Shown piece by piece: positions 523 to 3,500 of a stretch of DNA of 22,654 nt. The position numbers were made by a program, and so were the translations under genes. Positions within the stretch are counted from its first letter, which is position 1; every line of letters starts with the position of its first letter. The notes under the pieces are model-generated. The model was not told where the DNA came from. It saw nothing but the letters and a program-made list of their open reading frames with translations, and ran no database searches. The DNA lies in assembly GCA_026770585.1 (NCBI GenBank), contig MU646536.1:216165-238818 (forward strand), given 5' to 3'. This DNA is from Baffinella frigidus (taxonomy: Eukaryota; Cryptophyceae; Cryptomonadales; Baffinellaceae).

Positions 523-3500
523 GTACCACATCCCGAAATTCGTTAATTTGGGATCCTAGTGAAGACATAGCGGGGGGGGGTTGGGGGGGGGGGGTGCCTT
601 TCTCGCTCCTCCGCGAAAGAGAGGGGAGATACCGTCCTCGTCTCCATACCGTCCTTCGGGCCCACCCACCCCCAGGCACCACATCCCGAAATCCGACCCG
701 TCTGCTTTTTGTTGGTGAAACAACCATAGTCAAATTTGGGATCCTGTGATGAAGAAATAGGAGGGGGGGGTTGGGGTGGGGGGGCGGGCGGCTGTCTCGC
801 TCAATTTGCTATCTACGCCTGGGCATAGCTTAAAAGCCGGTGGCCGATCGCAGTGGGTGCCAATCGACGAAATGCGAGAGAAACGGCGCTCTTTGTCTGC
901 CCTAGGTTACATCGAATAACGCAACTCCTCGTCCTTTCCACGTCCGGGCATTCACCTGTAACCGAAATCCTTAGTACACAATTAAAACCCGACTTGTATC
1001 TGAAATCCCGAATCGTGAGCCTGGCGTGGTTGATCGCAGTGGGTGCCAATCGACGAAATGCTCCTGACGAGGGACACGGCGCCGGGGGTGTACTTCATCA
1101 AATATGAGTCATCTTGAGGGTGGTGTTTGCTACCTTGGCCTTCAAACAGCCTTAAAACAGTGCAAAAATCACCCCTAAGATAGCAAAAAGGAGACCCACC
1201 CCTAACATAGCAGAAAATGAATAAATTGGTGGTTGATCGCAGTGGGTGCCGATTGACGAGATGCTGCTGGCGAGAGACACGGCGCCGGGGCTGTACCACA
1301 TCGAACATTTGTCATCTTAAGGGTGGAGTTTGCTATCTTGGCCTCCAAATAGCCTTCAAATAGTACCAAGACCACATGTAAGATAGCAAACGGGGATACA
1401 TCTAAGATGGCAAACAGGGATTTAAAGATGATTTAAATCTGATCGCAGTGGGTGCCGATTGATGAGATGCTGCTGGCGCGAGACACGGCGCCGGGGATGT
1501 ACTACATCGAAAATGAGTCATGTTAAGGGTGGTGTTTGCTATCTTAGCCTCGAAATAGCTTCAAAATAGTACAAACATGACACCTAAGATAGCAAAAAGG
1601 AGACCCACCCCTAACACAGCAAAAAAAACTTAAATTGGTGGTTGATTGCAGTGGGTGCCGATTGACGAAATGCTGCTGGCGAGAGACACGGCGCCGGGGA
1701 TGTACTACATCGAATACATCAACCTCATCGGGGTGCTCACCATCGGGCGGACAAAGACGAATGACATGATCGCCCAGCGTCTGCTAGCAGCGTCGGTAAC
1801 ACCAAACTCCGTACTCCTTCACACCAAACCCCAAACACCACACAGTAAACCCCTTGACGCCAAACAACCCCCCCCACCCCCCATACCTTATCACTGCAAA
1901 CCGCACCCAACCGCCAGCCGCTGTCCACACCCACCCGCTAACCCCTCTGTCCACACCCAGGCAGGTGATCTCACTAGAGCTGTGCCTGATATCCGACGCC
2001 AACCCCAAACACCAGACCCTACACTCATGCACCCCAACCACTTCTCACCAACCCCCAAACACCCCACCCCCCACCCCTCATCTCTCCCCACCAAACCCCC
2101 CTAACCTCCCCCTAACTCCCAACGGCAAGCAGGTGATATCGCTGGAGCTGTGTCTCTTCTTCATGACGAACGAACTTCTCCCTCTCCGCTCGCGCGCAGC
2201 ATACGCCGACCTACTCGTTTCCGCCTTCATCGATTGCGCCCCCCAGGTTCATGCCGACAACCAACATTGAAGTAGGGCTTATTTGGACGCGACCCAGTAC
2301 AAAATTTACAATACAACACATTATAGTGCATCACAACTCATAAACTTGATTTTCGCCGACCTCCTCGTATCTGCTTTCATCGATTGCGCCCCCCAGGTGT
2401 GTGCGCATCCAGGACCATGTTGAATATTAATATACCCCCCCCCCCCATTAATTATCATAGATGCTGGACGAAGGTTACTAAGGGCTCTTGGTAAATTAGT
2501 TAGGGTCTGGTAGTGATGACGAACGAGTTCCTCCCGCTCCGCTCGCGCGCGGCATACGCCGACCTTCTAGTCTCGGCTTTCATCGACTGTGCCCCCCAGC
2601 TTCATGCCGACAACCAACATTGAAAGTAGGACTTATTTGGACGCGACTCAGCACAGATTTCACCGACTCTCTCTCTCTCTCTCTCTCTCTCTCTCTCTCT
2701 CTCCTGAGGAGGGCCACCCCGCTCCTCTCTCTCTCTCTCTCGCTCCCTGCCTTGCTCTCTCTCTCTCTCTCTCTCGCTCTCTCTTGCTCTCTCTCGCTCC
2801 CTCTCCCTTTCTCACTATCTCTCTCTTTCGCTGTCTCTCCCCCCCCCTCTCTCTGAGCGAGGCGATCACCCGCAGGAGGACAAGTGCACGGTCGACAACC
2901 TCCTCGTCTGGTCCGAGATCTACAACAAGGTGGCCCCGCCCAACAATCCAAAGGCACAAACCAAATCAAACCAAGGGTTTAATTCAAAAAAAATCAATTC
3001 AAACCAAGGGGTTTAAACTGGTCTGTGTGGATGCAGGTGGTCCCGCACAGCGAGCCGCTTGCCGCGCACGCCGGAACCCAGGTCACCCCTGAACCCCTAA
3101 ACCCTAACCCCTAAACCCCTAATCCCTGAACCCTACACCTTACACCCTAAAACTTTGTAAAGCGATTGGGATCAACGGTCTGTAAAGCGATTGTGATCAA
3201 CGGTTTGTAAAGCGGTTGTGATTAACGGTCTGTAAAGCGGTTGTGATCAACGGTCTGTAAAGCGATTGGGACCGGCCCAGGCCACCTCTGAGATTTCCAC
3301 CGTTATGAGATTCCCCAGGTCACCCCTAACCCCTAACCCTTAAACCCTACACCTTACACCCTGAAACTTTGTAAAGCGATTGTGATCAATGGTCTGTAAA
3401 GCGACTGTGATGAACGGTTTGTAAAGCGGTTGTGATCGACCGCAGGCGGACCTTGTGCGCATCAAGGACTTTGCGCTCAAGTATCTTGAGGTTATCCGCC

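Follow-up and report, generated by a model that had tools for sequence, protein, structure and literature searches.

Half-exon copies with an excess of silent differences in the introns of an IP3-receptor-like gene of Baffinella frigidus

Tandem duplication of a segment crossing an intron-exon boundary has been reported, together with a new intron, for the RdRp gene of potato (PMC4974935), and a study of mutually exclusive exons that arise by tandem exon duplication describes unannotated exon copies in intronic DNA (PMC9013439). The locus presented here resembles both systems: the duplicated segment spans an intron-exon border as in potato, and the copies lie beside their exon in intronic DNA as in tandem exon duplication. 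However, the potato gene is a single case, whereas dozens of half-exon copies occur here in one gene and on both exon sides. Similarly, the exons of PMC9013439 were sought as spliceable, whereas nearly all copies here are halves with one splice site. Among the results of full-text literature searches, nothing was recognised as a comparable density of partial exon copies combined with a silent skew.

The stretch of DNA analysed (hereafter the window) comprises 22,654 nt of contig MU646536.1 in the genome assembly of the cryptophyte Baffinella frigidus (382 Mb, 1364 contigs). The original prediction for this window held that its exon copies differ from the complete exons almost only at silent sites although they look dead, and read this as coding constraint after duplication. 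In the following the observation is partly confirmed and the reading partly supported: the introns contain local duplications across exon borders that obey a near-strict edge rule, with a silent skew that recurs in kinesin genes of the same genome.

The gene and its partial exon copies

The plus strand of the window carries an IP3-receptor-like gene, modelled as 29 phase-consistent exons coding for 812 residues. Homology to IP3 receptors extends along the protein: residues 1-245 of the model match IP3 receptors in the PDB with a best E of 2e-4, and three database relatives, two of them with PF01365, align to parts of it with 37-64% identity; a Pfam scan of the first 245 residues returned no family. 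Only the middle of the protein is covered, with the ligand-binding core and the channel pore outside the modelled part, and the gene probably continues beyond the window end after E30. Introns end in AG and start with GT, except for GC after E11, E17 and E18; there is no donor at the modelled 3' end of E23, which makes that end uncertain, and E6 is modelled 12 residues shorter, as these have no counterpart in the relatives. The introns are C-rich (C 0.304 vs G 0.198), and their coding strand includes telomere-like arrays of CCCTAAA, CCCTCAA and CCCCAAA (e.g. 9676-10070, 18160-18350). By eye, we also noted a foldback sequence around CTACGGCCTACCGTAGTCAATACCGTAG at 6782-6900 and, elsewhere in the genome (L020, C20:200001-206345), numerous short palindromic elements whose ends are similar to ACAGGGGTACCTCGCTC and which resemble foldback transposons.

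Copies were collected by searching the window with each exon in turn (blastn; E below 0.02, matches no further than 2 kb away), which yielded 56 plus-strand matches and one inverted match, some of the matches being pieces of one copy (596 and 625 for E1; 16121 and 16160 for E20b). At least one partial copy is present in the adjacent introns of 21 of the 29 exons (Table 1). The E2 copies at 1040, 1243 and 1449 lie in units of about 205 nt, and use of both members of the E15 pair (12215-12268 and 12405-12458) would add 18 residues in frame. Two further E12-like 3' ends, at 9148-9172 and 9478-9498, are followed by GTTATGAG (by eye), which suggests that downstream of E12 a pair of copies has been duplicated. 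A run of N at 10790-11372 interrupts the E13-E14 intron, where E14 copies could be missing.

Table 1. Exons of the IP3-receptor-like gene and selected copies in the window
Feature	Position	Strand	Remarks
E1	436..522	+	exon; partial copies 192-249 upstream and 596-675 downstream (two pieces)
E2	1652..1795	+	exon; four upstream 5'-part copies (854, 1040, 1243, 1449)
E3	2133..2246	+	exon; working copy for the two copies below
E3 3'-part copy	2354..2396	+	flank unlike that of E3
E3 3'-part copy	2516..2599	+	intron flank in common with E3 over about 60 nt (7 of 63 positions differing)
E8 5'-part copy	4208..4248	+	8 of 83 flank positions differing
E8	4550..4717	+	exon
Inverted copy of the middle of E10	5741..5795	-	94.5% identical; as template switching can leave
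E10	6290..6415	+	exon; copies upstream 6041, 6156; downstream 6529, 6672
E11	7293..7350	+	exon; one upstream copy 7129; six downstream 3'-part copies, 7466 to 8282
E12	8764..8849	+	exon; copies upstream 8576, 8663; downstream 8933, 9344
E14	11828..11915	+	exon; copies upstream 10385, 10631, 11573; downstream 11980
E15 complete copy	12215..12268	+	53 of 53 aligned positions identical; AG before, GT after
E18	14362..14457	+	exon; copies upstream 13672, 14000, 14157; downstream 14612
E22 (linker)	17863..17956	+	exon; four upstream copies, one downstream; silent:replacement 19:21, near dead-copy expectation
E23	19157..19249	+	exon, 3' end uncertain; upstream copies 18495, 18720, 18952
E24	19346..19444	+	exon; downstream copy 19598-19668 without similar flank
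E28	21288..21388	+	exon; downstream copy 21436-21473
E30	22534..22648	+	exon; upstream copies 21925, 22138, 22304

With few exceptions, upstream copies contain the 5' edge of their exon and downstream copies the 3' edge. A scan with the 24-nt edges of all exons at least 60 nt long detected 27 copies of 5' edges upstream and none downstream, and 14 copies of 3' edges downstream and none upstream, while shuffled edges gave none. Likewise, after trimming, 32 of the 33 upstream copies extend to the 5' edge, as do all 20 downstream copies to the 3' edge. Nearly all copies reach one exon edge only and therefore carry one splice site. Both edges are reached (within 10 nt) by two of the 53, one on each side (E15 12215 and E25 20213), of which E15, the one checked, has both splice signals; the complete copies with acceptor and donor that characterise mutually exclusive exons are thus the exception. 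In a looser match list, E10 6529 and E30 21925 reach neither edge.

The copied units span intron and exon sequence beside the original. Similar intron flanks (z of 7 or more, values that the repetitive introns inflate) accompany 28 of 32 upstream and 12 of 20 downstream copies; in seven of the 20 downstream copies the flank is not similar (z below 4). Copying specific to exons was considered and rejected, introns being duplicated as often: a local copy was found for 10 of 16 exonic, 28 of 48 mixed and 180 of 323 intronic high-complexity 60-nt windows. The flank common to E3 and its copy matches, at 2249-2293, 45 nt of another contig (C779) with 87% identity and may represent an interspersed repeat starting at the donor.

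In the 16 exons with copies on both sides, taken from the window and four kinesin loci (L031-L034), the upstream ends and the downstream starts lie at a mean absolute distance of 10.9 nt (P below 1e-4 under a uniform null, 0.013 by permutation); the positions were typed by hand and the kinesin segments are homology matches instead of exact exons, and we regard the common internal end point as a lead only. No regular GT or AG was found at the internal ends in the matches of 15 exons.

Silent and replacement differences

The copies were located where they had been predicted, and most of the individual counts (given here as silent:replacement) proved right within one or two changes. Thus, the E3 copies show 10:1 (2516-2599, read from 2516; the BLAST match from 2505 gives 13:4) and 4:0 (2354-2396), the E28 copy 3:0, the E18 copy at 14157 7:3, and the E1 copy 4:1 in 625-675, with 1:1 in its second piece (596-615). 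Of three copies put at 4:0, those of E8 (4208) and E10 (6529-6558) indeed have zero replacements, the silent number being one off (3:0 and 5:0), and that of E24 (19598) has the four silent differences plus one replacement at the match edge. The count for E21 (4:0 plus a stop) was not reproduced because that exon end is placed differently here, and the two exceptions named beforehand, E26 (1:3) and the E2 copy at 1040 (4:4), behave as such. The total of 44:6, by contrast, reflects a favourable subset. The nine corresponding matches give 44:10 (silent share 0.81), the remaining 47 give 129:104 (0.55) and all 56 plus-strand matches 173:114 (0.60).

The silent excess itself persists in the full count. 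The 53 trimmed copies yield 133.5:83.5, a silent share of 0.615 and a dN/dS of 0.254 (exon-bootstrap interval 0.173-0.355); with one copy per exon (the nearest), the figures are 68:48 and 0.29 (0.18-0.42). The silent share is 0.56 upstream and 0.69 downstream, and 0.64 in core exons vs 0.51 in the linker exons E19-E23; among copies, it shows no variation beyond binomial sampling (P 0.17). Comparisons of copies with each other give 77:49, and copies with a shared derived replacement 38:25, or 14:6 without E22, counts that birth order and exchange can blur.

The premise that neutral pseudo-exons should show mostly replacements needs correction, because the working exon forms one of the two branches compared and about 42-45% silent differences are therefore expected in dead copies. 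Across four mutation spectra, a dead copy set against an exon under constraint is expected to have a silent share of 0.39-0.50. Dead copies were simulated at three ages (54 matches per run, no indels, an own exon branch for each copy) and searched for, trimmed and counted in the same way as the real ones. They have a dN/dS of 0.540, 0.565 and 0.572 and a silent share of 0.42-0.43, the lowest dN/dS of 120 runs being 0.383 and the highest silent share 0.517. The observed 0.254 departs from this expectation for neutral pseudo-exons. Pipeline bias is rejected, as the simulated dead copies never fall below 0.38, and so is the mutation spectrum as sole cause, the highest of the four expected silent shares (AT-biased) being 0.50. 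CpG decay was likewise rejected as the source of the third-position excess. CpG observed/expected is 0.80 in introns and 1.09 in exons, the mismatch in 26 intron duplicates is 0.256 at CpG vs 0.196-0.237 elsewhere, and these duplicates lack a three-base period. GC-rich third positions do not decay in the copies, with 49 silent third-position differences pairing A/T in the exon with G/C in the copy and 42 the reverse.

In 40 of the 56 matches, 16 with repetitive flanks being left out, differences per site amount to 5-6% at positions 1 and 2, 23-25% at third positions and 16-17% in usable intron flanks, the last figure biased low since only alignable flanks count. The ratio of first and second positions to flanks is 0.31-0.38, with intervals up to 0.51-0.62, so that by flanks alone the dead-copy value of 0.5 is compatible.

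The same pattern is found in a second gene family. A kinesin-domain search of the genome returned 45 matches, and eight loci (L031-L038) were fetched, of which six contain partial copies. In all, 17 of 29 coding segments have copies (L031 4/4, L032 1/1, L033 3/4, L034 4/4, L035 1/3, L036 0/3, L037 4/6, L038 0/4). These loci give 137:74 and a dN/dS of 0.219 (0.166-0.304). Together with the window the count is 271.5:157.5 and dN/dS 0.236 (0.187-0.302 by exon, 0.186-0.281 by locus), and omission of any one locus leaves it at 0.219-0.251. L037 shows no skew (5.5:9.5), and its upstream copy 5597-5641, which stops short of the 5' end of its segment, breaks the edge rule; in L034, some copy clusters are identical or nearly so.

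At present the copies appear to be dead, as replacements are spread about evenly over conserved and variable residues and stops occur at chance frequency (3 vs 3.7 expected). Among codons shared with relatives, 34 of 384 carry an amino-acid change, compared with 35 of 312 among variable codons and 5 of 34 among those without a relative (conserved vs variable P 0.31, a weak test given distant relatives). Eight matches contain gaps, of 5, 6, 1, 1, 6, 1, 1 and 5 columns.

Origin of the copies and of the silent excess

The origin of the half-copies by boundary-spanning duplication is well supported by their anatomy. If a local tandem duplication has one of its breakpoints within an exon and the second in the intron next to it, a half-exon would be left behind: upstream, the 5' half including the acceptor, or downstream, the 3' half including the donor. 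Such duplications would be tolerated because the working exon stays whole, and the new copy would then drift. Coding constraint over part of the divergence is probable, the claim having survived the full count, the simulated control and the second gene family. For this constraint we tentatively favour, at slightly less than even probability, a combination of boundary-spanning duplication with an ancestry of copy and exon that often lies in separate functional lineages. A diverged allele or homologous chromosome may have served as template, either for the duplication itself or for a subsequent exchange, in which case the silent differences between two working versions would come on top of the changes that the copy gathered by neutral decay.

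Other readings share part of this evidence. That the copies are used now or were until recently, as complete alternative exons truncated later or as half-copies still joined into transcripts, would agree with a dN/dS of 0.24 where 0.54-0.57 is expected, with the skew among the copies themselves, with the complete copy of E15 and with the coinciding internal ends of 16 exons (permutation P 0.013). Random truncation of complete copies, however, would hardly leave one splice site per copy and so strict an edge rule, and both the neutral-looking replacements and the chance frequency of stops speak against use, making this reading quite unlikely; the prediction that all copies are used finds no support for the same reasons. 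Its further suggestion that half-exons are joined at the RNA level is disfavoured as far as ordinary splicing goes by the internal ends, which show no regular GT or AG in the matches of 15 exons. We consider it very improbable that the half-copies form a working reserve, joined in DNA or RNA at the common internal point and kept under coding selection. Unlikely, if a little less so than current or recent use, is that unequal exchange has time and again put a copy in the place of the working half-exon, replacement-bearing copies being lost along with the chromosomes damaged by them. The proposed repeated shifts of the working copy receive some backing here, in that the four-gamete test fails for 25 of 54 informative site pairs, the E2 units share flanks in tandem and the skew extends to copies compared with each other, but repeated mutation could also produce such failures, and exchange with a lethal filter has a hand-worked equilibrium dN/dS of 0.5, not 0.24.

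A paralogue itself under selection, if it had served as the source, would yield silent-only differences and unrelated flanks, as in seven of the 20 downstream copies. Most copies nevertheless adjoin their own exon with a shared flank, and DNA searches of the genome with E2 and E3 revealed no second gene, although most of the genome stretches fetched read N; we think this source improbable. We likewise give little probability to an artefactual skew arising from match ends, mutation bias or the selection of copies. The favourable subset behind the predicted sum, the silent share of 0.56 in upstream copies alone and the lack of skew in L037 point that way, but in none of the 120 simulation runs did dead copies go below a dN/dS of 0.38, the silent share expected under an AT-biased spectrum is no higher than 0.50, CpG is not strongly hypermutable, intron duplicates have no three-base period, and dN/dS stays within 0.219-0.251 whichever locus is dropped.

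Descent from different functional lineages, most simply diverged alleles or homologues, would account for the surplus of silent differences: those at positions 1 and 2, at third positions and in flanks are consistent with a mixture of silent-only and neutral paths, the surplus exceeds that of simulated dead copies in the window and in the kinesins, and exchange is suggested by the 25 of 54 informative site pairs. Against it stands the silent divergence of about 11% between functional versions that we estimate to be needed, which is very high. The counts of 38:25 and 77:49 are not predicted by a purely dead phase unless exchange occurred, and the downstream copies without similar flank, the identical or nearly identical clusters (L034, E15) and L037, with its missing skew and aberrant copy at 5597, fit poorly.

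These observations indicate that introns can fill with half-exons at high density through one-sided, boundary-spanning duplication, and the geometric edge rule can be searched for in other genomes. The silent skew either records very high allelic divergence combined with exchange or signals that broken copies still reach protein.
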